A stretch of DNA of 27,322 nucleotides from a virus, in the IMG/VR virus record IMGVR_UViG_3300013372_002350, positions 1 to 27,322 of that record, one strand, 5' to 3'. Below are positions 1,072 through 27,322 of this stretch, one piece after another. Position 1 is the stretch's first letter; every line of letters starts with the position of its first letter. Position numbers and translations under genes: made by a program. The notes under the pieces were generated by a model that saw nothing but the letters and a program-made list of their open reading frames with translations, did not search any database and was not told the origin of the DNA.

Positions 1072-2838
1072 ATGGCAATAACACTTAAAAACATCACCCT
1101 TCGTAATTTTTTATCAATCGGTCAAGTAACCCAAGCAGTCAACTTTGACAGACAAGAACTAACACTTATTCTAGGTGAAAATCTAGATTTAGGTGGTGAT
1201 GGCGCTCGTAATGGTACGGGTAAAACTTCATTGATTCAAGGCTTATCTTATGCATTGTTTGGCGTTCCTATTAACTCAATCCGCAAAGATAATTTAGTTA
1301 ATCGCACCAATGGTAAAAACATGCTTGTTACACTAGAATTTAGTGTTGATGGGTTAGAATATAAAATTGAGCGTGGAAGAAAACCCAATCTATTGCGATT
1401 TTATATAAACAATGATTTGCAAAAAAACACAGATGATGCTCAAGGAGAAAACAAAGAAACTCAAATAGCAATAGAACGAGTTATACAAATGTCTGCTGAT
1501 ATGTTTAGACATATTGTTGCATTGAATACCTACAGTGAACCGTTTTTAGCATTAAAAACAAATGACCAACGTGATATCATTGAACAATTACTTGGCATCA
1601 CTTTACTTTCTGAAAAAGCGGATATTGTTAAAAATATGGTTAGAGATAGTAAAGATAGTATTCAATCTGAAGAATTCCGTGTTAAGGCAGTAGAAGAAGC
1701 CAATAAGCGTGTTAAAGAACAAATTGATTCTACTAAACGTAGAAGTAAACTTTGGCAAGATAAACACAACTTAGATTTAACAAAACTAACTCTTACCTAT
1801 ACAGAGTTAACCAACATTGACATTACTGCTGAGTTACAAGCACATAAAAATTTAATTGAATATATTCAAAAAAGAAAAGACATTGATGAACTAACTAAGT
1901 TAATTACTAGATGTGTAACCGATGAAGCCAAAGATTTAAAGTTAATAACTAAATTAAAAAAAGAAATTGCAGATTTAAAAAATCATACTTGTTATGCATG
2001 CGGGCAAGAATTGCATGACACCAAACATGAAGAAGTATTAGCAGATAAAGAAAAAGCATTACAAGAAGCTGCATTACAAGCATTAGCAACTAATTCTCAA
2101 TATATTGAAAATACAGGGTTGTTGCAACAGTTAGGTACATTAGGGATGTTGCCAATTACGCATTATAATACAGAAGCAGAAGCGGTAAAACATTCTAGTG
2201 AAATTGCTAATATCGTAACCCAATTAGAAAACAAAGCCAATGAGGTAGATCCGTACAGTGAACAGATTGTAGAAATGGAACGTCATGCATTACAATCCAT
2301 TGATTTTGAAGTTATTAATAAATTGACACGAACTATGGAACATCAAAAATTTTTATTAGATTTACTAACTAGTAAAGATAGTTTTGTTCGTAAAAAGATA
2401 ATTGATCAAAACTTAAGTTATTTAAACGCTAGATTGACCGATTATTTAGACAAAATTGGATTACCACATCAAGTTATTTTTAAAAATGATTTACAAGTTG
2501 AGATCACTGAGTTGGGAAGAGAACTTGATTTTGATAATTTATCAAGAGGAGAGCGAAATAGATTAATTTTAGGATTAAGTTTTGCTTTTAGAGATGTATG
2601 GGAAAATTTATACAAACCCATTAATACGTTATTTGTTGATGAATTAATTGATAGCGGGTTAGATACAATGGGTGTAGAAAATGCCATTGCTATTTTTAAA
2701 GATATGAGTCGCCGTCGGCATAAGTCTATATGGTTAGTTAGTCATAGAGAAGAACTTGCTGGCAGAGTACCAAGTGTACTTAAAGTTGTAAAAGAAGGCG
2801 GCTTCACAAGTTACCATAACACTGTAGACATAGAATGA
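1072..2838 (+). CDS. 46: Recombination endonuclease subunit gp46 (SbcC/Rad50-like ATPase)
   Basis: This is the SMC/Rad50-type ATPase partner of gp47. The 588-aa protein has an N-terminal ATPase lobe with the Walker A stretch NGTGKT at 47-52, a long predicted coiled coil (about 180-400) with a zinc-hook CxxC at C307 and C310, an ABC signature LSRGERNR at 490-497, Walker B with D523-E524, and a late SHREE histidine-loop motif. The length is close to T4 gp46 (about 560 aa). The first Walker A glycine is replaced by Ala (ARNGTGKT). The gene directly follows gp47 and is probably co-transcribed. No strong ribosome binding site precedes ATG 1072, so translation may be coupled to gp47. Confidence 0.94.
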   Translation: MAITLKNITLRNFLSIGQVTQAVNFDRQELTLILGENLDLGGDGARNGTGKTSLIQGLSYALFGVPINSIRKDNLVNRTNGKNMLVTLEFSVDGLEYKIERGRKPNLLRFYINNDLQKNTDDAQGENKETQIAIERVIQMSADMFRHIVALNTYSEPFLALKTNDQRDIIEQLLGITLLSEKADIVKNMVRDSKDSIQSEEFRVKAVEEANKRVKEQIDSTKRRSKLWQDKHNLDLTKLTLTYTELTNIDITAELQAHKNLIEYIQKRKDIDELTKLITRCVTDEAKDLKLITKLKKEIADLKNHTCYACGQELHDTKHEEVLADKEKALQEAALQALATNSQYIENTGLLQQLGTLGMLPITHYNTEAEAVKHSSEIANIVTQLENKANEVDPYSEQIVEMERHALQSIDFEVINKLTRTMEHQKFLLDLLTSKDSFVRKKIIDQNLSYLNARLTDYLDKIGLPHQVIFKNDLQVEITELGRELDFDNLSRGERNRLILGLSFAFRDVWENLYKPINTLFVDELIDSGLDTMGVENAIAIFKDMSRRRHKSIWLVSHREELAGRVPSVLKVVKEGGFTSYHNTVDIE

Positions 2839-2870: not shown

Positions 2871-3446
2871 TTGACGATAAGTATTAACATGCCATCACCA
2901 CAGAAAACTAAAGGATCCGGATTTGAACGAGAAGTTGCAAAATTTCTTAGTGATACATACGGTGAAAGTTTTATCCGAGCGCCTGGCTCTGGAGCATATG
3001 TTGGTGGTAAAAATCAAGCAAGAACTGAATTCTTACATGAAGGGCAAATTCGTTCCTTTAAGGGCGATATTGTTCCGGGAGAAAGTTTTAGTAAAATGAA
3101 TATAGAATGTAAGTTCTATGCTGATTTTCCTTTTCATTTATTATTATCAGGAGAATGTAAAGTAATAAATATGTGGATTGAACAATTAATGGATGTTGCT
3201 GTTGAAGGTGACATTAGTATGTTGTTCATGAAATTTAATAGAAAAGGGCGTTATGTTGCCGTGCAATGCGGCCCAACTTGGGTAACAGACAACTTTATAT
3301 ATTACTCTTCAGATAAATTTGGTGATTGGTTAATCATTGAATTTATTGATTTTTTCAAAAATAACAAACTATTATTAAAATCCTATTCAGGATTACCAGA
3401 CACAACGTCAATACAAAATATCAAAACTTCTAATATAATTATATAA
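2871..3446 (+). CDS. Putative PD-(D/E)XK nuclease, Holliday-junction-resolvase-like
   Basis: This 191-aa protein carries a PD-(D/E)XK-like pattern: an early acidic helix (E19/E21 in GFEREV), an RAPGSGAY segment at 36-43, GDI with D66, and an E79-x-K81 pair (IECK). RecU/Hjc-type resolvases and related phage nucleases are built this way. Lying third after gp47 and gp46, it plausibly processes recombination intermediates, perhaps in place of T4 endonuclease VII (gp49), which is not seen here. The start is uncertain: TTG 2871 has a weak purine-rich stretch (AAAGAGA) just upstream, while ATG 2889 would remove six residues without harming any motif. The C-terminal 25 residues are low in motif content. 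The exact family is inferred. Confidence 0.6.
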   Translation: MTISINMPSPQKTKGSGFEREVAKFLSDTYGESFIRAPGSGAYVGGKNQARTEFLHEGQIRSFKGDIVPGESFSKMNIECKFYADFPFHLLLSGECKVINMWIEQLMDVAVEGDISMLFMKFNRKGRYVAVQCGPTWVTDNFIYYSSDKFGDWLIIEFIDFFKNNKLLLKSYSGLPDTTSIQNIKTSNIII

Positions 3447-3454
3447 TAAAAATT

Positions 3455-3912
3455 TGTGTGATTGGGGTTCCCCAATCCTCCTTGAGGTTGTACAGATTGT
3501 GCTGTGCCATCAGATTCTGGAGTAAGCGTAATTACATATGTAATTATGGAATACCGATAGGGCTCTCGTCAAAGCGAACCCTAAACAAGTCTACTGATAT
3601 TTTATCTTGATTCAGTAGAATGTGCGTTGTGGAAGAATCATTATAAACGTGATAGCTTCACTACAGTCCCGTAAACTTTACAGAACAACCGGTAGCGTTT
3701 AATAGCCTAAATAGCTGATTAAACGGGGAATAGATAACAATGGTCGATGGGCATAGCAAATATCCCAAATCCAATGGTGGTGCTTATTAGCACTACCATG
3801 GCTCTCCAAGCAGCAATATATAACACAAGGTACTCTTAAAAAAAAGTAAGTACCCGTGAAAAATAAGAACGAGCGATAGCGAAGTTCTTAGATGGGCTAT
3901 AGCCCATCTTCT
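3455..3912 (+). ncRNA. Candidate large structured RNA (about 460 nt) in the 502-nt gene-free gap
   Basis: No convincing ORF lies between the nuclease stop (3446) and the end of the minus-strand gene (3949), but the stretch is packed with stems. They are 3460-3467/3470-3477, 3477-3480/3484-3487, 3527-3537/3538-3548 (18-bp palindrome core), 3559-3562/3579-3582 with an inner 3566-3568/3575-3577, 3590-3597/3612-3619 (8 bp), and a composite hairpin 3632-3640/3650-3659. Further stems are 3668-3670/3726-3728 enclosing 3696-3703/3718-3725 (8 bp), 3746-3755/3761-3771, 3774-3784/3789-3799 (11 bp), 3829-3834/3849-3854, 3864-3870/3884-3890 and the palindrome 3890-3909. Two stems use G-U pairs only as + strand RNA (3779-3794 and 3528-3547), favouring this strand. 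No tRNA, tmRNA, RNase P or group I/II signature was recognised. Large phage RNA classes such as GOLLD or ROOL are candidates only. Confidence 0.5.
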
Positions 3913-3948
3913 AATAACAAAAGAATTATATAAATGAATAATTACGGA

Positions 3949-5006
3949 TTAGAAATATGGAAGTTGAGACTTTTTTGTTACTTCCATATTATGCTCTATT
4001 AATTCGTATATGTGTGTTCGTTCGTCAGCAGACATATTTAATACATCTTCATATGACACACCACCTCGCATGTGCCATGCCAAACTAATCGCATTTTTCT
4101 TAATGGATAGACACTCTTTTTCCATGTTATCTATCAGCTTCTCAACACCTTCAGTGTTAAGGTGTAGAAGCCTTATGCGAAAAAATCAGTTATGTTCAAT
4201 GTAAATGGTTGTGAATAGTCATGACTACACTTAATGCATTTAATTGCTAATGGTTTAATTTCTGCTTCTGCTTTTAGTTTAGTATTAAAATCTCTAATGG
4301 CTATGTATGATTGCTTATCACAATTAGTTAAATAGTCCATAATAAATTCTTTGTCAGTAACTTTACTGTTTGGGGTTTCAATATATTCAATAGAATTTGA
4401 TATTAACTGTATAGTTAGTTCAACTATAGATTTTATTGCCAATTGAGTCTTTTCAATTCGGATAGCATCGTCTGTGTTAGTATTTGACTCTAACCCTGCA
4501 AGAATTCGTTGAACTTCAAATTGACTTATCTTAGTTTGATTTAGTTCTTTATAAGTTAAGGATTTAAATTTAATGTGTAACTCATTAATTTCCATAGTAT
4601 TTTCATAATTTGCTGCGGTTAATGTAGTTAATAATAAAAGTAAATTTATTCCATATTTACTAGAGTCGCTACACGCCGGGCATGTAGATTCTATTTCTAA
4701 GTCATTGCCACCGGATGCAGCTTTTATTGCTATTAGTATAGCATCCAAATCAACACTAGAAATCAACCATGGATCAATAATATCCGGGATACAACTTTTA
4801 ATAATGTCAGTCATTGCAGTTCCGTTATACAATGCGTCTGGTGTTTTTGATGTTATTTCATCAATTGCCGTCATTGGATATACCGGCAATTCTCCGGATT
4901 CTGGCATATTAAGTATATTTGGAGGATATTTGCCACCACTTGGTAATTTTAGATAAATTGATGGCCGACGAAAATATTGTTTTAATGGGTTATTGTTTAG
5001 TGGCAT
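3949..5006 (-). CDS. Frameshifted gp26-type chaperone, long form (join 5006..4179, 4179..3949)
   Basis: A -1 shift on the slippery T TTT TTC (4185-4179) bypasses the stop at 4175-4173 and continues in an open frame to the TAA at 3951-3949. The predicted long form has 276 + 76 = 352 aa. The extension contains a compact helical module with LAWHMRGGVSYEDVLNM and the end KKSQLPYF. From memory, short proteins with AWxMRGG...TTKKSGLPFF-like ends occur beside gp26 in other T4-like phages. An internal ATG at 4125 would give a 58-aa protein, but no ribosome binding site stands before it, which favours the frameshift route. The arrangement parallels the lambda G/GT tape-measure chaperones, and a tape-measure-like gene lies divergently next door. 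Expression of the long form is inferred. Confidence 0.6.
4136..4185 (-). promoter_or_regulatory. Programmed -1 ribosomal frameshift signal
   Basis: On the minus strand the heptamer T TTT TTC (4185-4179) is in the correct X XXY YYZ phase of the gp26-like frame. A 6-nt spacer (GCATAA, which contains the zero-frame stop) separates it from a strong stem-loop: 4172-4166 pairs with 4142-4136, and 4165-4159 pairs with 4151-4145, giving about 14 bp with a 2-nt bulge (4144-4143) and a 7-nt loop (4158-4152). Heptamer, spacer and stem match the standard geometry of bacterial and viral -1 frameshift sites, and the -1 frame stays open for 76 codons. Confidence 0.75.
4173..5006 (-). CDS. 26: Baseplate hub / tail assembly protein gp26-like, zero-frame product
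   Basis: The 277-aa product resembles the T4 gp26/gp51 baseplate family (Pfam T4_baseplate): an N-terminal LPSGGKYPP segment (21-29), then SGELPVYPMTAIDE (37-50), and two cysteine pairs, CPAC (C109, C112) and CIKC (C257, C260), that could form one zinc site. In T4, gp26 and gp51 are needed for hub assembly. Because this gene sits beside the probable tape measure gene, a tape-measure chaperone role is plausible here. ATG 5006 is preceded by AAGGAA at good spacing. A late-promoter motif on the minus strand (5063-5057) lies upstream. The protein ends in NITDFFA, with the DFF codons forming the frameshift site. Confidence 0.85.
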   Translation of the reverse strand: MPLNNNPLKQYFRRPSIYLKLPSGGKYPPNILNMPESGELPVYPMTAIDEITSKTPDALYNGTAMTDIIKSCIPDIIDPWLISSVDLDAILIAIKAASGGNDLEIESTCPACSDSSKYGINLLLLLTTLTAANYENTMEINELHIKFKSLTYKELNQTKISQFEVQRILAGLESNTNTDDAIRIEKTQLAIKSIVELTIQLISNSIEYIETPNSKVTDKEFIMDYLTNCDKQSYIAIRDFNTKLKAEAEIKPLAIKCIKCSHDYSQPFTLNITDFFA

Positions 5007-5093: not shown

Positions 5094-7871
5094 ATGAGTG
5101 AAACGGAACGGCAACTAGCAGAACTTATTGAGCTTATGAAAGAGGAGCGAGGCGGAGGCCGACGTAGTAGCCCCGCGGGGTCACCAAACACCGCCGGATC
5201 GTCCACGTTATTTAATACTAGTAATTTGTTTACTGACCTTACTCGCAGTGTGAGAGAGTTTGATCGAGCTTTAGATCAATCTAATAATTCTCTTCACACT
5301 TTTTCCAAATATAATTATGCAATAGAAGGGTTAACTAAATCTCTAACTACTGTAACCGGTAATATACCAGGACTTGGTTCAGCAATGAATCTATTAGGAA
5401 AAGCGGTGTCCGGGCTTGCAGGAGCAGTATTTAAACAAACTGATGAATTACTTCAAGCCTCAGATCAATTTGCTAAAATAGGTGCAGCAGGGTCATTGAC
5501 TACCAAAGATATAATGAAAATGGGCGAGGCCGCCGGCCTAACTACTAAAGATTTAGGTATATTAACTAATGCAACAGGAAAAATTGGTACTGGATTAATT
5601 GGATTAGGCGCTAATGCTACTGAAGGCATTAAAGCATTTGCCGGTATGGCTAATGTTGGTAAAGATGTACGACAAGAATTTCAACGAATGGGTGTAAGCC
5701 AAACTGAATTAATGGACCAACAGGCTAAGTATGTTGAGATACAAGCACTTTCCGGCAAATCAATGTTAACTCAAACAATGGGTGCGGAAAAACTTAAAAA
5801 ATCATCGTTAGAATATTCTGAAAATTTATTACGGTTATCAGCATTAACCGGAAAAAGTGCGGATGTATTACAAGAAGAACAAAAGCAACAGGCTATGGAG
5901 TTGGAAGAGATGATTGCCTCACGGCAAGAAAATGATAAAATAGCCGAATTAAGAGCATCAAAAAATGATGCAGAAGCAGACTCATTGCAAAAAGAACAAG
6001 ACAGCAGGAAAGCATTTGTTAAGGATATTGAAGCAAAGTACGGAAAAGCAGCAGGAGTGGCTCTTGGTAAAGTTGCAAGAACCGGTAGTTATGATCAAAC
6101 AACTGCTGGGTTTGCTAATCTAGGAATTGATGCAGGAAAACTACAATCTGATCTTAAAAATGGGGTAGATGGTACAAAAATTGCTAATGAAATGGGTGAC
6201 CAACTTAAATCAGGAATGCAATCACTGTTGAAAAATTTAGGTCAAGGTGCTCAATTTAATGCTCAGGAATTATTTACCTCAATGGGGTTTACTGATTTCA
6301 AAGAGTTACTTGGAAAAGTTGGAACAAGAATAGGTTTCAGTGATCAAGCACAAAGTGATGCTGCAAAAAAAACAATTGAGGATAATAAGTCAAAAACAGG
6401 GGTAGCAGCTATAGGGGCAGCTGCTACAGACTTTGCTCAAATATCAAGAAATTTTGTTAAAGAAACTGAAATTAGTCTAAACTTAACTAAACAAGGGTTT
6501 ATTGCGCTTGCTAATGTATTGGTACAAGGGCCGGCAAACTTTGAAACAAATCTTAAGGAAGCAGGAGAAAAACTTAAAGAGTTTGCAAAAAGTTTAGTTC
6601 CAGAATCACTAAGTAAAGCCGCAACAAAACCGACAAATATACCGGTCGCTAACGAAGCCAACCTTACCAAAGGTGAAGTTGCTCTTGGAGGCGCTGCTGT
6701 CGCAACTGCAGCTAAAGTTGGAGAAGCAGTTTTAGGAGGTGTACCGGTCGTTGGAACTGCTTTTAAAATAATAAAAAAGGTTGGCAAAACCGCGACTTGG
6801 GCCGCTATTATAGATATGATAGGGGGAGATCAAATTGCAGATTGGCTGAAAGGGGATACTAAAGTAGAAGATATTAAAAAACTTCCAACAACTATTGCTA
6901 AACAAACCCCAATTGCTGTTAACGCGGTAACGGATGAAGTATTACCCGGGCCAAAACAATTTGAAAATATTAAACAAGGGTTGCAAGGGGTAGAAAAGTG
7001 GTTGACGATGTTCTCGGAGAATACTAAAAAGTTACTAGGAGATCTAGCAGGCATTCCATCAGCACCCGCAGCGCCAGTCGCAACTCCAGCCGCAACTACA
7101 GGTAGTCCTGATACTAGTGCAACTAGATCGCATGGTACTACCGGGGAAACAGGAAAAGAAGTTGAACCAAAAGATGTTGTAGCACAATTACATGCCGGCG
7201 AAAAAGTATTGCCTAAAGAAGAAGCTAATATATATATAAAAGATAAAGCAACTGCGCCGGGAGTAGCAGCAGCACCGGCAGTAGCAACCACAGTAGCCCC
7301 AGTACCAGTAGCACCGGCAGTAGCAACCACAGTAGCCCCAGTACCAGTAGCACCGGCTATAGCAACCCCTGTAGTAGTAGAAGCAAAAAGTAGTACTAAT
7401 AAAACTGATGTGGGAAATTTTAGCATAGAAGATTATGTAGCACCCACAACCGGAAATTTTGCCCGCGCTGACCGAGCGGCAGAAGTTGCAGCGTCAACAT
7501 CAAGGGCAGGTAGTGAAGCTTCTGGCGATGTCACTAGTGAACTAGACTTAATTAGAAGGAATGCAGGATTAGCAGCACCCGCACCTGCACTATTAGCAGC
7601 ACCGGCAGAAGTAGCACCGGTTAGTACTGCAATTTCAGCGTCTGAAACACTATCAAAAGTTACTTTGGAATCGGTAAATCCAGTAGTTGTTGAAGCACTT
7701 AAAAAGATTACTCCATCTTCAACCCCGGCAGCAGCAGCAACAGCATCTAACAATTCAGAACAAATGATGTTTGAGGTTCTATCTTTATTCACTGATAAAT
7801 GTGATGAAATGATTGATAAACTTGAAGAAGCCAATGATATAGCAGCAAGAATATTAAGAGAATCCCGTTAA
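5094..7871 (+). CDS. Probable tail tape measure protein
   Basis: The 925-aa protein starts with a charged, Gly/Ser-rich stretch, then a helical Ala/Lys/Gln-rich body typical of tape measure proteins. Hydrophobic patches occur near 95-115 and 525-575. A motif VVAQLHAGEKVLPKEE follows at about 701-716, similar to the LHAGExVL motif seen near the ends of tail tape measure proteins. After it comes an Ala/Pro/Val-rich linker with a 13-aa tandem repeat, and an acidic helical C-terminus. Its length and its position next to the gp26-like chaperone with a frameshift site suit this role. It does not resemble T4 gp29 by eye. Other large virion proteins are possible. The start ATG 5094 overlaps the end of a tiny upstream ORF (5075-5101), and GGAAG lies 9-13 nt upstream. 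Confidence 0.6.
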   Translation: MSETERQLAELIELMKEERGGGRRSSPAGSPNTAGSSTLFNTSNLFTDLTRSVREFDRALDQSNNSLHTFSKYNYAIEGLTKSLTTVTGNIPGLGSAMNLLGKAVSGLAGAVFKQTDELLQASDQFAKIGAAGSLTTKDIMKMGEAAGLTTKDLGILTNATGKIGTGLIGLGANATEGIKAFAGMANVGKDVRQEFQRMGVSQTELMDQQAKYVEIQALSGKSMLTQTMGAEKLKKSSLEYSENLLRLSALTGKSADVLQEEQKQQAMELEEMIASRQENDKIAELRASKNDAEADSLQKEQDSRKAFVKDIEAKYGKAAGVALGKVARTGSYDQTTAGFANLGIDAGKLQSDLKNGVDGTKIANEMGDQLKSGMQSLLKNLGQGAQFNAQELFTSMGFTDFKELLGKVGTRIGFSDQAQSDAAKKTIEDNKSKTGVAAIGAAATDFAQISRNFVKETEISLNLTKQGFIALANVLVQGPANFETNLKEAGEKLKEFAKSLVPESLSKAATKPTNIPVANEANLTKGEVALGGAAVATAAKVGEAVLGGVPVVGTAFKIIKKVGKTATWAAIIDMIGGDQIADWLKGDTKVEDIKKLPTTIAKQTPIAVNAVTDEVLPGPKQFENIKQGLQGVEKWLTMFSENTKKLLGDLAGIPSAPAAPVATPAATTGSPDTSATRSHGTTGETGKEVEPKDVVAQLHAGEKVLPKEEANIYIKDKATAPGVAAAPAVATTVAPVPVAPAVATTVAPVPVAPAIATPVVVEAKSSTNKTDVGNFSIEDYVAPTTGNFARADRAAEVAASTSRAGSEASGDVTSELDLIRRNAGLAAPAPALLAAPAEVAPVSTAISASETLSKVTLESVNPVVVEALKKITPSSTPAAAATASNNSEQMMFEVLSLFTDKCDEMIDKLEEANDIAARILRESR
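7272..7349 (+). repeat. Two 39-bp direct repeats in the tape-measure-like gene
   Basis: Units 7272-7310 and 7311-7349 are identical and encode 13-aa APAVATTVAPVPV. A third, degenerate copy starts at 7350. The repeat forms part of an Ala/Pro/Val linker near the C-terminus and can expand or contract in frame. Confidence 0.85.
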
Positions 7872-22825: not shown

Positions 22826-25800
22826 ATGGCACAAAGAAATATAGATTTTGGTACATTCCCGGATGATCCGGACGCAGACGCAATTAGAACAGCCTTTCAA
22901 AAAGTACAGGATAATTTTGGTGAACTATTTGAAGGTGCTGATGTAGGCTCTGTTATATCTGTTAATAGAACTCAGGGTGCAGGTATTACCGTAAGTACTC
23001 CTACCGGAAATGTTGTCATTACTGCAAATATTGCTTGCGTTCAGGTGCATACTAGTACATTAAGTATTGGGCGTGATGCAAACGGGTCACTAGATACCTC
23101 AATTACTGCATCATCGCAAACTCTATATGTTGATTTACCGGCAAATATAGCAAATGTGGCAAATATTAACTTATCGGGATATGCAAATGTTCAAGGTAAT
23201 TTATCAGTAGTTGGTAACTCAAATTTAGCAAATGTAGGTATTTCTGGTAATATAACTCTTGGTGGAAACATCGTAATTACCGGAAATGTATCCGCATTTA
23301 ATGTATCTGCTACTAATGCTCTTAGCGCAGGCACTACTTTATCGGTAACCGGCAATGCTAATGTTGGTAACTTAGGCACTGCAACTGCTATAATCACTAC
23401 TGGTAATATCACCACTATCAATAGCGGTTTACTAAAAAATGGTAATAGCAATATAACTCTTACTGCTAATGGTAATATCTCTACTACTGTAGTTGGAAAT
23501 ACTGTTTTAGTTGTAACAGGTACTGGAGTTAATGTTGCCGGTACATTAAATGCCACAGGTAATATAACCGGTGGGAATTTAATCACTGCCGGATTTGCTA
23601 ATGTTGGTGCTAATGCGAATATAGGCACTACTTTATCGGTAACGGGTAACGCTAATGTTGGTAACTTAGGTACGGCTGGATTGATTGTTGCAACAGGTAA
23701 TATAACTGGTGGTAATTTAATCACTGCTGGATTTGCTAATGTTGGTGCTAACGCTAACATAGGCACTACTTTATCTGTAATTGGTAATGCTAATGTCGGT
23801 AATCTTGGCACTGCTGGATTGATTGTTGCTACTGGAAACATAACCGGTGGAAATTTAATCACTGCTGGATTTGCTAACGTCGGTGCTAATGCTAACATAG
23901 GTACTACTTTATCTGTAATTGGCAATGCTAATGTCGGTAATCTCGGTACTTCAACAGCAATAATCACTACAGGTAATATCACTACTATCAATAGTGGATT
24001 AATGCAAAACAGCACAAGTAATATCACTATTACAGCTGCTGGCAATGTATCTACATTTACCGCCGGCAACGCAACAGCACAATTTGTAGTCACTTCAACT
24101 GGCGCTAATATACCAGGCACTGCTAATATAATTGGTAATGCTAATGTTGGTAATCTTGGTACTGCTGGATTGATTGTTGCTACCGGAAATATAACCGGTG
24201 GGAATTTAATCACTGCTGGATTTGCCAATATTGGCGCTAATGCGAATATAGGCACTACTTTATCTGTAATTGGTAATGCTAATGTTGGTAACTTAGGTAC
24301 TGCTGGATTGATTGTTGCAACTGGAAATATAACTGGCGGAAATTTAATCACTGCTGGATTTGCTAATATAGCCTCTAATGCTAACATAGGTACTACTTTA
24401 TCTGTAATTGGTAATGCTAATGTTGGTAATCTTGGCACTGCAGGAGAAATTATTGCTACAGGTAATATAACTGGCGGGAATTTAATCACTGCTGGATTTG
24501 CTAATATAGCCTCTAATGCGAATATAGGCACTACTTTATCTGTAATTGGTAATGCTAATGTTGGTAACTTAGGTACTGCAGGGGTAATTGTTGCAACAGG
24601 AAACATAACTGGTGGGAATTTAATCACTGCTGGATTTGCTAATGTTGGTGCTAATGCTAACATAGGCACTACTTTATCGGTAATTGGTAATGCTAATGTT
24701 GGTAATCTTGGTACTGCTGGATTGATTGCTGCAACTGGAAATATAACCGGTGGGAATTTAACCACTGCAGGGGTAATTGTTGCAACAGGTAACATAACCG
24801 GTGGAAATTTAATCACTGCTGGATTTGCTAATGTTGGTGCTAATGCTAACATAGGCACTACTTTATCGGTAATTGGTAATGCTAATGTTGGTAATCTTGG
24901 CACTGCTGGGTTGATTGTTGCAATAGGTAATATAACCGGCGGTAATTTAATTACTACCGGATTTGCTAATATAGCCTCTAATGCTAATATAGGTACTACT
25001 TTATCTGTAGTTGGTAATGCTAATGTTGGTAATCTTGGTACTGCTGGATTAATTGTTGCTACTGGAAACATAACTGGTGGGAATTTAATCACTGCTGGAT
25101 TTGCTAATATAGCCTCTAATGCTAATATAGGTACTACTTTATCTGTAGTTGGTAATGCTAATGTCGGTAACTTAGGCACGGCAACTGCTATAATCACTAC
25201 AGGTAATATCACTACTATCAATAGTGGGTTACTACAAAATGGTAATAGCAATATAACTCTTACTGCTAATGGTAATGTTTCTACATTTACTGCCGGAAAC
25301 GCAACAGCACAATTTGTAGTTACTTCAACTGGGGCTAACATCCCAGGTACTGCCAATGTAATTGGTAATGCTAATGTTGGTAATCTTGGTACTGCTGGAT
25401 TGATTGTTGCAACAGGTAACATAACCGGTGGAAATTTAATCACTGCTGGATTTGCTAATATAGCCTCTAATGCTAATATAGGCACTACTTTATCAGTACT
25501 AGGTAATGCTAATGTTGGTAACTTAGGTACTGCTGGATTGATTGTTGCAACAGGTAACATAACTGGTGGAAATTTAATCACTGCTGGATTTGCTAATGTT
25601 GGTGCTAATGCGAATATAGGCACTACTTTATCTGTAGTTGGTAATGCTAATGTAGGTAACTTAGGCACTGCTGGTGTTATGATTGCTACAGGTAATATAA
25701 CCGGCGGAAATTTAATCACTGCCGGGTTTGCTAATATAGCCTCTAATGCTAATATAGGCACTACTTTATCTGTAGTTGGTAATGCTAATGTTGGTAACTT

Positions 25801-27322
25801 AGGTACTGCTGGATTGATTGTTGCAACCGGTAACATAACCGGTGGAAATTTAATCACTGCCGGATTTGCTAATGTTGGTGCTAATGCGAATATAGGCACT
25901 ACTTTATCTGTAGTTGGTAATGGTACATTTGGTAACATAAACACATCTGGAACAGAAACAGCCACTCGCTTTATCTCAAACATAGCAATTGGCACCGCTC
26001 CACTAACAGTAACATCTACTACACGGGTGGCTAACTTAAATGTTGACTATGCTAATGTAGCAGATTTTATCAATGTAACTGCGCCAGGTACTGGAACTGC
26101 ATATATCATAGGTGCTAATGCAACTACAGGAAATATTGCTGAGTTGACAAGCACTGGTATAACAATGAATTTAGCAAATAATGCTATTACTGCAACTACA
26201 TTCGTTGGTGCATTATCAGGTGCAGCAACCACAGCAGGCACAGTAACTACTAATGCACAACCAAATATAACTTCAGTTGGATCATTAACTGGACTAACTA
26301 TTAGCAATGCAACCGGGATAATTGATTTCACTACATCTGCAAATGTTACTTTAGGTGCAGTGGCAAATTTACATATATCCGGCGGAACAGCAGGATATAA
26401 TTTAAAAACTGACGGATTGGGTAATTTATCATGGGGAGTGGATAGTGCTATTGCTGGCGGGAGTAACACACAAATACAATTCAATGATGATTTAGCATTA
26501 AACGGTAATTCAGGATTCACTTTTGATAAAACAACCGGTGCATTTGCTGTGCCGGGTACCGGAACATTAACTGGATTAGCAGTAAGTAATGCATCCGGGC
26601 TTGTTAATTTTACCGGAACAGGAAATGTATCACTAGGGTCAGTATCTAACTTACATATTACAGGTGGCACAGCATCTACGTATTTGGTTACTGACGGGTC
26701 CGGGGGATTATCTTTTACATCGTTAGCAGGAAGTCCTCCTGGAGGTTCTAATCAGGCTATACAGTTTAATGATACTACTGTTTTCCAAGGAAATACAGGA
26801 TTCACTTTTAATAAAACAACAGGTGATGTCGCAGTACCCGGTGCCTTAACAGTAACTGGAAATATTGGTGCAGGAAATGTTTCTGGTACTTTATTAACGG
26901 GAACATTAACAACAGCGGCACAATCAAATATAACAAGTACCGGTACATTAACAAGTTTAACCGTATCAGGTAATATTGGTGCAGGTAATGTAACTGCTAG
27001 TAGATTTATATCAAATGTTGCAAACGGAGGACTTTCCCCGTTTGTAGTTTCTTCTACTACAGTAGTTGCTAATTTGGCAGCAGACACTGCTAATACAGTA
27101 ACAGCAGCGGCACAAGGTAATATTACTTCAGTTGGTACATTAACAAGTTTAGCAGTAACTGGTAATAGTAGTGCAGGTAACTTGAATACTGCAGGAGCAG
27201 TAGTAGCAAGCACATTGACATCTAATGTAGCAATAGGTACCGCCCCATTGACAGTAACAAGTACAACTCGTGTTAATAACTTAAACGTGGCTTACGCTAA
27301 CGTTGCTGATTTTATTATTGTA
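22826..27322 (+). CDS. Giant repetitive tail-fibre-like protein (3' end beyond the window)
   Basis: The frame opening at ATG 22826 appears to stay open to the window end, 1,499 codons; I read it codon by codon in the N-terminal 150 or so residues and from 26042 to the end, and checked repeat spacing between. The N-terminus MAQRNIDFGTFPDDPDADA followed by AIRTAFQKVQDNFGELF (19-35) is an anchor-like segment similar to the 426-aa protein at 17430. From about residue 177 to 1032 tandem units of 46 aa dominate, with a core such as GNLGTAGLIVATGNITGGN and TAGFANVGANANIGTTLSV. After the array come fibre-type motifs: QPNITSVGTLTGL, and GTAPLTVTSTTRVANLN, which recurs at the window end. A trimeric beta-rich shaft of a tail fibre is likely. 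A ribosome binding site TAAGG is 9-13 nt upstream. Chaperone or receptor-binding parts would lie beyond the window. Confidence 0.85.
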   Translation, partial: MAQRNIDFGTFPDDPDADAIRTAFQKVQDNFGELFEGADVGSVISVNRTQGAGITVSTPTGNVVITANIACVQVHTSTLSIGRDANGSLDTSITASSQTLYVDLPANIANVANINLSGYANVQGNLSVVGNSNLANVGISGNITLGGNIVITGNVSAFNVSATNALSAGTTLSVTGNANVGNLGTATAIITTGNITTINSGLLKNGNSNITLTANGNISTTVVGNTVLVVTGTGVNVAGTLNATGNITGGNLITAGFANVGANANIGTTLSVTGNANVGNLGTAGLIVATGNITGGNLITAGFANVGANANIGTTLSVIGNANVGNLGTAGLIVATGNITGGNLITAGFANVGANANIGTTLSVIGNANVGNLGTSTAIITTGNITTINSGLMQNSTSNITITAAGNVSTFTAGNATAQFVVTSTGANIPGTANIIGNANVGNLGTAGLIVATGNITGGNLITAGFANIGANANIGTTLSVIGNANVGNLGTAGLIVATGNITGGNLITAGFANIASNANIGTTLSVIGNANVGNLGTAGEIIATGNITGGNLITAGFANIASNANIGTTLSVIGNANVGNLGTAGVIVATGNITGGNLITAGFANVGANANIGTTLSVIGNANVGNLGTAGLIAATGNITGGNLTTAGVIVATGNITGGNLITAGFANVGANANIGTTLSVIGNANVGNLGTAGLIVAIGNITGGNLITTGFANIASNANIGTTLSVVGNANVGNLGTAGLIVATGNITGGNLITAGFANIASNANIGTTLSVVGNANVGNLGTATAIITTGNITTINSGLLQNGNSNITLTANGNVSTFTAGNATAQFVVTSTGANIPGTANVIGNANVGNLGTAGLIVATGNITGGNLITAGFANIASNANIGTTLSVLGNANVGNLGTAGLIVATGNITGGNLITAGFANVGANANIGTTLSVVGNANVGNLGTAGVMIATGNITGGNLITAGFANIASNANIGTTLSVVGNANVGNLGTAGLIVATGNITGGNLITAGFANVGANANIGTTLSVVGNGTFGNINTSGTETATRFISNIAIGTAPLTVTSTTRVANLNVDYANVADFINVTAPGTGTAYIIGANATTGNIAELTSTGITMNLANNAITATTFVGALSGAATTAGTVTTNAQPNITSVGSLTGLTISNATGIIDFTTSANVTLGAVANLHISGGTAGYNLKTDGLGNLSWGVDSAIAGGSNTQIQFNDDLALNGNSGFTFDKTTGAFAVPGTGTLTGLAVSNASGLVNFTGTGNVSLGSVSNLHITGGTASTYLVTDGSGGLSFTSLAGSPPGGSNQAIQFNDTTVFQGNTGFTFNKTTGDVAVPGALTVTGNIGAGNVSGTLLTGTLTTAAQSNITSTGTLTSLTVSGNIGAGNVTASRFISNVANGGLSPFVVSSTTVVANLAADTANTVTAAAQGNITSVGTLTSLAVTGNSSAGNLNTAGAVVASTLTSNVAIGTAPLTVTSTTRVNNLNVAYANVADFIIV
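23354..25935 (+). repeat. Tandem repeat array of 138-bp units with longer variants
   Basis: Seventeen copies of the anchor AATGCTAATGTTGG or close variants (the last is AATGGTACATTTGG) begin at 23354, 23648, 23786, 23924, 24137, 24275, 24413, 24551, 24689, 24878, 25016, 25154, 25367, 25505, 25643, 25781 and 25919. The spacings are 294, 138, 138, 213, 138 (x4), 189, 138, 138, 213, 138 (x4), all multiples of 3. The pattern starting with each 213 step recurs after 1,230 nt, so there is a higher-order duplication. Units differ mostly by synonymous changes and by a GFANVGAN/GFANIASN switch. Confidence 0.93.

Follow-up and report, generated by a model that had tools for sequence, protein, structure and literature searches.

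The DNA analysed here (hereafter, the window) is a virus record of 27,322 bases that represents a fragment of the genome of a T4-like phage. Its genes are arranged in the order gp47/SbcD, gp46/SbcC, a RusA-like resolvase, a gap, gp26, a gene that weakly matches tape measure, and then the portal, protease and major head protein genes. The gap is bounded on one side by the stop codon of the plus-strand RusA-like gene at 3446 and on the other by a small minus-strand reading frame followed by gp26 (Table 1), and the next sizeable plus-strand gene starts at 5094. Because the nearest downstream genes are convergent, a leader role is excluded for the RNA described below as it occurs in the window. 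The named phages closest by gp46 (the best 50 of 3079 matches; 36-49% identity) are nearly all jumbo phages, including PA5oct, Phosso, Atu_ph07, XaC1, 121Q and others. ARAGORN detected no tRNA or tmRNA gene in the 27,322-base window, and the sequence TATAAATA, which we take to be the T4 late-promoter octamer, has no occurrence on either strand of the whole window, compared with 6.8 expected (sd 2.4). Two minor features of the coding regions are recorded here. Near the C terminus of the RusA-like protein (3390-3446), a D-T-x-S motif is, as read by eye, kept in most relatives, and the tail beyond it is variable. An open frame of 934 codons (23191-25995, minus strand) lies antisense to a large plus-strand ORF that starts at 22826 and is perhaps an effect of composition.

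The first-pass annotation of this DNA, made from the letters of the window, proposed a large structured noncoding RNA in the gap, and the results below bear this out. The region 3440-3950 folds with −143 kcal/mol on the plus strand (z −5.3) and −140.4 kcal/mol on the minus strand (z −6.9), and none of 100 shuffled sequences folded as well on either strand. Folding alone constitutes little proof; therefore, relatives were collected for comparison. The best 80 relatives by gp46 and the best 80 by portal yielded 162 loci that include the window itself twice, and these loci are close kin by selection and not all independent (L072 and L127 share a contig, as do L052 and L142). A search with nhmmer (E ≤ 1e-3) detected the RNA in 114 of the 162 loci, and many of the remaining loci end before the gap. 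After 9 partial and 19 duplicate rows had been dropped from the 114 matches (105 of them full length), 86 distinct homologues remained, with a mean identity of 67% (range 50-100%). When the loci were restricted to those with tblastn matches to the genes on both sides, the RNA was detected in 101 of 105, and in all 101 it lies between the plus-strand RusA-like gene and a minus-strand gene. The four loci in which it was undetected (L152, L154, L159 and L161) are more distant and carry other sequence in the gap. Furthermore, at least 120 IMG/VR stretches, a range to which the first-pass annotation did not extend, carry a core pattern. In 16 large contigs of 116-525 kb, picked for holding the RNA, there is one strong copy per contig, and two of the 16 have an additional match at E 0.65 and 0.85.

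Covariation was assessed with a test that imitates R-scape (G statistic, APC, a tree-based null with 40 simulations) and is not R-scape itself; the null replays inferred substitutions on the tree, and the cut-off was E ≤ 0.05. The RNA yielded 29 significant column pairs, 24 of which are standard base pairs. In contrast, 511 nt of SbcC (79 sequences) gave 0 significant pairs in the same pipeline. A 320-nt RusA stretch gave 2 significant pairs, and its top two, 3466-3472 and 3465-3473, are pairs of P1, which this control stretch overlapped. An independent alignment (A1) was made of 47 of the 86 sequences, with at most 92% identity in the core. Across 57 named pairs, both pseudoknots included, 94.9% of its cells are paired, compared with 76.2% after shuffling and 33.9-40.6% after sliding. 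The comparison of homologous gaps that the first-pass annotation had called for thus revealed compensatory changes: for 45 of the 57 pairs, at least one sequence has both partners changed. Among the 86 distinct homologues, such changes occur in P3, P4, P5, P6, P7, P10, P11 and P16. Local realignment gave P1, P2a/P2b and P15 covariation support and confirmed P3 and P16.

The same alignments address the strand on which the structure functions. In 65 pairs of the well-aligned helices, a count that excludes P1, P2, P2a, P2b, P3, P8, P9, P15 and the outer P13 pairs, there are 199 G-U and 10 A-C combinations; over all helices of the first 86-sequence alignment, in which P1, P8, P9 and P15 are poorly aligned, the counts are 568 and 199. 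A G-U pair on the plus strand is an A-C mismatch on the other strand, and the large excess of G-U over A-C therefore identifies the selected molecule as plus-strand RNA, as the first-pass annotation had concluded from two G-U pairs. Both of these pairs exist. Of the 86 sequences, 75 have AU and 11 have GU at 3779-3794; at 3528-3547, 40 have AU, 11 GC, 7 GU and 6 UA, the others being gapped or different. The ratio is strong evidence that neither a DNA palindrome nor a minus-strand RNA is the main cause of the conserved complementarity.

The region was also described as lacking any ORF. In the homologues, the longest ORF has a median of 44 aa on the plus strand (maximum 90) and 56 aa on the minus strand (maximum 114), and the lengths of the homologues (411-510 nt, median 451) are spread evenly over all three phases; the window itself contains a 50-aa frame that begins with GTG at 3458-3610. 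We see no sign of conserved coding in these alignments. The comparison of the homologues demonstrates that 3455-3912 encodes a conserved plus-strand RNA fold of approximately 450 nt that has been kept by selection.

Table 1. Features of the RNA locus and its flanking genes, in positions of the window.
Feature	Position	Strand	Basis or remark
gp46/SbcC-like gene, upstream of the RNA	1072..2838	+	PHROG 77, E 2.3e-97
RusA-like Holliday junction resolvase gene, immediately 5′ of the RNA	2871..3446	+	PHROG 244, E 4e-19
Whole RNA	3455..3912	+	Homology and covariation; ends inferred
P1 hairpin, 5′ end of the RNA	3460..3477	+	Significant pairs after local realignment
P2 (3478-3481 with 3519-3522, CUCC/GGAG), closing P2a/P2b (3486-3511)	3478..3522	+	P2a/P2b covary
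P3 hairpin	3526..3548	+	Covariation
P4, 5′ strand (partner 3690-3694)	3552..3556	+	3552-3694 changes on both sides; other four pairs invariant
P5/P5a hairpin	3558..3583	+	Covariation
P6 hairpin, loop with PK1 5′ strand (3602-3607)	3586..3622	+	Two-sided changes in 10 of 10 counted pairs
PK1, 5′ strand UUAUCU (partner 3732-3737, AGAUAA)	3602..3607	+	Pairing in 100% of cells; two-sided changes in 5 of 6 pairs
P7, 5′ strand (partner 3684-3689)	3626..3631	+	Covariation
P9/P8 stem-loop, variable	3632..3659	+	Pairing in 76.5% and 79.2% of cells, each with compensatory changes
P10, 5′ strand UCCC (partner 3726-3729, GGGA), crossing P4 and P7	3667..3670	+	Covariation
Two bases able to pair with 3694-3695, read as Px equivalent	3676..3677	+	3677 covaries with 3552 and 3694
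P7, 3′ strand (3684-3689), then P4, 3′ strand (3690-3694)	3684..3694	+	Covariation
P11 hairpin	3697..3724	+	Two-sided changes in 9 of 9 pairs
P10, 3′ strand (3726-3729), and PK1, 3′ strand (3732-3737)	3726..3737	+	Covariation
P13 hairpin, sequence nearly invariant	3775..3798	+	3784-3789 covaries
P15 hairpin	3865..3889	+	Covariation after local realignment
P16 hairpin, final element	3890..3909	+	Covariation
Conserved element GATAAATGAAYARTTACGG, one mismatch in the window	3929..3947	+	Downstream of the RNA in many relatives
Small convergent ORF adjoining the RNA	3949..4125	-	tblastn match on the minus strand in 101 of 101 relatives with the RNA and both flanks
gp26-like baseplate hub gene, convergent	4173..5006	-	PHROG 150, E 7.1e-17

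The RNA begins with P1, followed by P2 with P2a/P2b, by P3 and by a core in which P4 encloses P5, P6, P7 and P8/P9. P10 crosses P4 and P7 and has P11 between its strands, and the 3′ strand of PK1 lies two bases past P10. There are about a dozen helices, at the positions where the first-pass annotation had placed ten to twelve stem-loops. The same annotation noticed that CCC (3668-3670) and GGGG enclose a hairpin and suggested a multi-branched core. The pairing is real, with P11 inside it; however, because P10 crosses P4 and P7, it forms a pseudoknot and not the plain closing stem of a multi-branched loop. P10 and PK1 are the two long-range pseudoknots supported by the comparison, and PK1 is an addition to the earlier description. 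In P2, all 344 of 344 cells are paired, and the pairs are invariant apart from a single U-A, among C-G pairs, in one of the 86 sequences.

Positions 3552, 3677 and 3694, likewise absent from the earlier description, vary jointly (UAU in 46, AUA in 15, CGC in 9, CGU in 8, UGU in 6, and UGC and CAU in one each of 86 sequences), which may reflect a base triple or two exchanging helices; the neighbouring pair 3676-3695 is nearly constant (CG 84, AA 2) and is therefore without covariation. Positions 3751 and 3810 covary strongly in a non-standard manner, as G/G in 52 and U/U in 23 of 86 sequences, and probably form a tertiary contact. In addition, the RNA contains invariant unpaired bases. Downstream of the RNA, GATAAATGAAYARTTACGG has an exact match in 58 of 387 loci, duplicates counted; no conserved ORF starting in this element was found, and it could be a promoter or a protein site. 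A small ORF (ATGAAT...) after the RNA was considered and rejected, as it is not conserved and has a median length of 8 aa.

The strand order P7, inner hairpins, P10, P7′, P11, P10′ corresponds to that in the group I intron core, P3-P8. According to this analogy, the RNA might be catalytic, and the crossing helices, the possible base triple and the invariant unpaired bases would be in keeping with such an activity. However, the likeness is topological only, being confined to the order of the crossing helices P7 and P10 with P11 between; pseudoknots of the same order are common in non-catalytic RNAs, no intron or ribozyme of Rfam matches, and, unlike a group I intron, the RNA is intergenic in 101 of 101 loci. 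We therefore regard a ribozyme as quite unlikely.

No family of Rfam 15 matches the whole window at the gathering score, and a scan of 3380-4000 relaxed to E 10 returned six weak matches, all to unrelated RNAs. Six loci from named phages likewise gave no Rfam match, the relaxed scan returning sub-threshold unrelated RNAs alone, and the 121Q gap described below is without a matching Rfam 15 family as well. The first-pass annotation had offered two options, membership in GOLLD, ROOL or a similar class, or a new RNA. According to the available excerpt of PMC12286853, many GOLLD RNAs exceed 800 nt and are often near tRNA islands, ROOL is a large phage RNA with several pseudoknots, and OLE is a large, conserved and ornate RNA mainly of extremophilic bacteria; no function is described there for GOLLD or ROOL. 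The window RNA resembles GOLLD in being large, ornate, phage-encoded and of undescribed function, ROOL in being a large phage RNA with several pseudoknots, and OLE in size, conservation and ornateness. These likenesses in size class, phage host and ornate fold are what could be said for a catalogued RNA. In contrast with GOLLD, the window RNA is approximately 450 nt long and has no tRNA gene in its 27-kb fragment; as with ROOL, from which it also differs in the absence of tRNA from the window, there is no covariance-model match, and unlike OLE, which it likewise fails to match, it occurs in phages. Because neither GOLLD nor ROOL matches at gathering scores, and no relevant family appears up to E 10, the second option is the correct one, and we consider membership in a catalogued class most improbable. 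By the descriptions in that excerpt, the fold, neighbourhood and copy pattern of the new RNA set it apart from GOLLD and ROOL. Large phage noncoding RNA is a known kind; this family, without a match in Rfam 15, is new.

A blastn search of named phages with the window RNA matched 45 records in short pieces, and among the best 20 of these 45 none exceeded 10% query coverage. The exact core pattern has 0 matches in bacterial and archaeal genomes, which, given the strictness of the pattern, is a weak test. Among the matches listed for open-licence PMC papers, none, judged by title and the start of the abstract, concerns this RNA. The terms "intergenic", "non-coding" and "ncRNA" are absent from the available text of the phage CBB paper (PMC5259590), which mentions no such RNA, a term search of that of the phage MIJ3 paper (PMC6892783) gave zero matches, and a jumbo-phage review (PMC13282480) mentions non-coding RNAs once in its available part, for phiKZ. 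An RNase P-like reading of ACAG..CAACC was dropped, as it has no Rfam match.

Unannotated gaps occur at the same place in named jumbo phages, with 836 nt in 121Q and 792 nt in XaC1. The DNA of the 121Q gap matches 40 phage records at 161 places. We compared 50 copies (L331-L380; an RNA of approximately 500 nt), each of which could be aligned to 447 or more of the 580 query positions, from 11 RaK2-like jumbo phages: 121Q (4), RaK2 and K64-1 (3 each), and XaC1, Munch, Hallingskeid, pEa_SNUABM_12, CBB, GAP32, XbC2 and Kaldavass (5 each), that is, 3-5 per genome; some of these phages are near-identical, and the copies are not all independent. The order of elements is a hairpin with the PK1 loop, P7 (GUUGC/GCAAC) and a P10 that crosses it, a hairpin, P10′ and then directly PK1′, as in the window type. 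Unlike the window type, the 121Q type has several copies per genome, a promoter-like sequence, no HMM match and an extra helix, Px, around ACAG..CAAC, for which we read 3676-3677/3694-3695 as the window-type equivalent. Its covariation comprises 22 significant pairs, 21 of them standard. In 37 pairs, 92.7% of cells are paired compared with 68.9% after shuffling, and 35 of these pairs change on both sides; one of the five measures in this test, further pair types, was not above the shuffles (75 of 500 reached it). The cells of PK1 are paired in 99.7% of cases, and G-U exceeds A-C by 135 to 13.

The copies of the 121Q type occupy varied positions. In both 121Q and Hallingskeid, gp46-endonuclease VII and the baseplate hub gene flank one of the copies, and in GAP32 and CBB one copy adjoins endonuclease VII. 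No copy was detected in the gp46-gp26 gap of RaK2, whose three copies are elsewhere. The gp46-side copy of 121Q is flanked by minus-strand genes on both sides, and the other three lie between plus-strand genes. An exact TATAAT is present upstream of 47 of the 50 copies, compared with 8.65 expected from shuffles, and TGn precedes it in 41 of the 47. In 44 of the 50 it lies 35-100 nt upstream of the structured part, the exceptions being the five XaC1 copies and L354. The TATAAT sequence and the copy number point to a stand-alone noncoding RNA, and the 121Q type is probably an independent transcription unit. No RNA is annotated at the copies in the stretches viewed. Short hypothetical proteins are annotated over the RNA in some records (L324, L329 and others), for example in Hallingskeid and Kaldavass.

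The spread of the copies bears on whether the locus might serve as a replication or recombination site, at which the RNA would form or prime an R-loop or origin and the copies of RaK2-like phages would mark several origins. The copies are widely spread; those of GAP32, which share a single strand, lie at about 35, 99, 178, 262 and 341 kb, and the window-type RNA adjoins gp46/gp47 and a resolvase. However, one of the five copies of pEa_SNUABM_12 is on the opposite strand, 121Q and XaC1 have less regular spacing, and the copies cluster by locus across genomes, with XaC1 apart, so that the spacing may be one old event. Moreover, window-type contigs have a single strong copy, and selection acts on the plus-strand RNA fold. 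A replication site is, in our judgement, improbable.

Beyond these phages, model R1 found nothing in the stretches around gp46 of PA5oct, Phosso, Atu_ph07, Vibrio 2.275 and SCTP-2, and the 121Q DNA had no match in the whole records of the same five. Large, well-folding unannotated gaps do occur near gp46/gp26 in PA5oct (L163, 15871-16533) and Phosso (L164, 9408-10421); they have no match to the window-type or 121Q-type HMMs, and among named phages their DNA matches its own kind alone.

A third type of RNA was recognized at L161, one of the four loci without the window type. From the best 80 loci among the relatives of L161, 39 copies were aligned, with a mean identity of 60%. Most carry CCGUUG...CAACCGCCUC and a Px of GAGG or GGGG opposite CCUC. 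For P10, 30 of 38 copies (one of the 39 was dropped) have a complementary four-mer when any of four offsets is allowed, compared with a mean of 9.5 and a maximum of 16 in 500 shuffles. For PK1, the mean longest complement, with G-U allowed, is 7.0, compared with 4.84 in shuffled sequences (maximum 5.41 in 200 shuffles). In fixed columns, 21-33 of 25-39 are paired; these poor counts arise because the alignment slips by one base, for which the four-offset test allows. L159 and L472 are matched by the L161-type query, and the 5′ module of the window (the P2 region) matches L472 at E 6.6e-5 and, weakly, L159 at E 0.054. At the position of the window's CUCC..GGAG, L159 has CCCA..UGGG, which would be a compensated P2. 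A repeated motif at L161 3082-3148 has copies that covary as identical bases (G/G or A/A; U/U or A/A) in this type. In L152 (4073-5231) and L154 (3109-3751), 640-1160 nt separate the RusA-like gene and the gp26-side genes; this sequence has no full-length match to the window or 121Q type, and model R1 with filters off gave chance-level matches alone on L152, L154 and L161.

Detectable similarity between the window and L161 types is limited to short 5′ and 3′ segments, and comparisons of the 121Q type with the window type (HMMs and model R1) and with L161 yielded nothing significant. Nevertheless, a P6-type hairpin with a loop that pairs 3′ of P10, and a P7 of the form GUUG...CAAC crossed by P10, are found in all three. 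The P7 motif alone was set aside as proof of kinship because it is unspecific: 2 of 35 matches fall in RNA loci and a reversed control also matches, although in 121Q-type phages the figure is 23 of 29. On the basis of helix order, crossing pattern, P7 motif and place, the window, L161 and 121Q types probably constitute one jumbo-phage RNA superfamily.

We believe it probable that the window contains the gene of a stand-alone noncoding RNA, plus-strand and highly structured, encoded by jumbo T4-like phages. Two pseudoknots, one in which P10 crosses P4/P7 and another in which the loop of P6 reaches beyond P10, would tie its compact core, P4-P11, and the core would be flanked by the 5′ module P1-P3, the near-invariant hairpin P13 and the 3′ hairpins P15 and P16. 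The RNA would be transcribed during infection and would act in trans; its most probable form is that of a folded RNA or an RNP, which may bind a phage or host machine through the invariant unpaired positions and hairpin P13. We rank this explanation first, followed by a 3′ mRNA element, a replication-linked RNA and a ribozyme. The argument from promoter and copy number derives from the 121Q type, the kinship of which is suggested by common helix topology and location; for the window type, no conserved promoter of its own was found and TATAAT is not enriched. The window-type RNA might therefore still represent the 3′ end of the mRNA of the recombination genes, a cis-acting element that ends the gp47-gp46-RusA message, protects it or regulates its decay. 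P1 starts 14 nt past the RusA-like stop and the strong terminal hairpin P16 is the last element; in the 101 relatives, the distance from the upstream gene's tblastn match to the start of the RNA match has a median of 25 nt (−2 to 101), and that from the end of the RNA match to the match of the convergent gene a median of 9 nt (−13 to 645), limits that are partly set by the query 3440-3950. However, the structure, pseudoknots and invariant unpaired bases far exceed the needs of termination, a terminator scan of 3300-4100 found 0 sites, and the 121Q-type copies occur in varied gene contexts, most of them behind a promoter-like sequence. A 3′ element is therefore the lesser prospect, though a more serious one than the replication site.

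To our knowledge, few RNAs longer than 400 nt with a conserved, ornate fold have been described. The present study adds a large RNA family with strong covariation and without a match in Rfam 15, and its topology ties it to the cultured E. coli phages 121Q and PBECO4. More speculatively, the superfamily might be an RNA machine of ancient origin in jumbo T4-like phages, with a double-pseudoknot core, present in one clade as a single copy next to the recombination genes and multiplied to 3-5 separately promoted, widely spaced copies in RaK2-like phages (in this reading, of E. coli, Klebsiella, Salmonella, Erwinia and Xanthomonas), where it could serve as a trans-acting catalytic RNA or RNP core in takeover or genome handling; we hold this broader proposal only tentatively. 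The topological link to cultured coliphages makes the role of large phage RNAs directly testable, and the host given in the Sharanji record is K-12 MG1655. Furthermore, a related RNA offers an explanation for the unannotated gaps of 121Q and XaC1.
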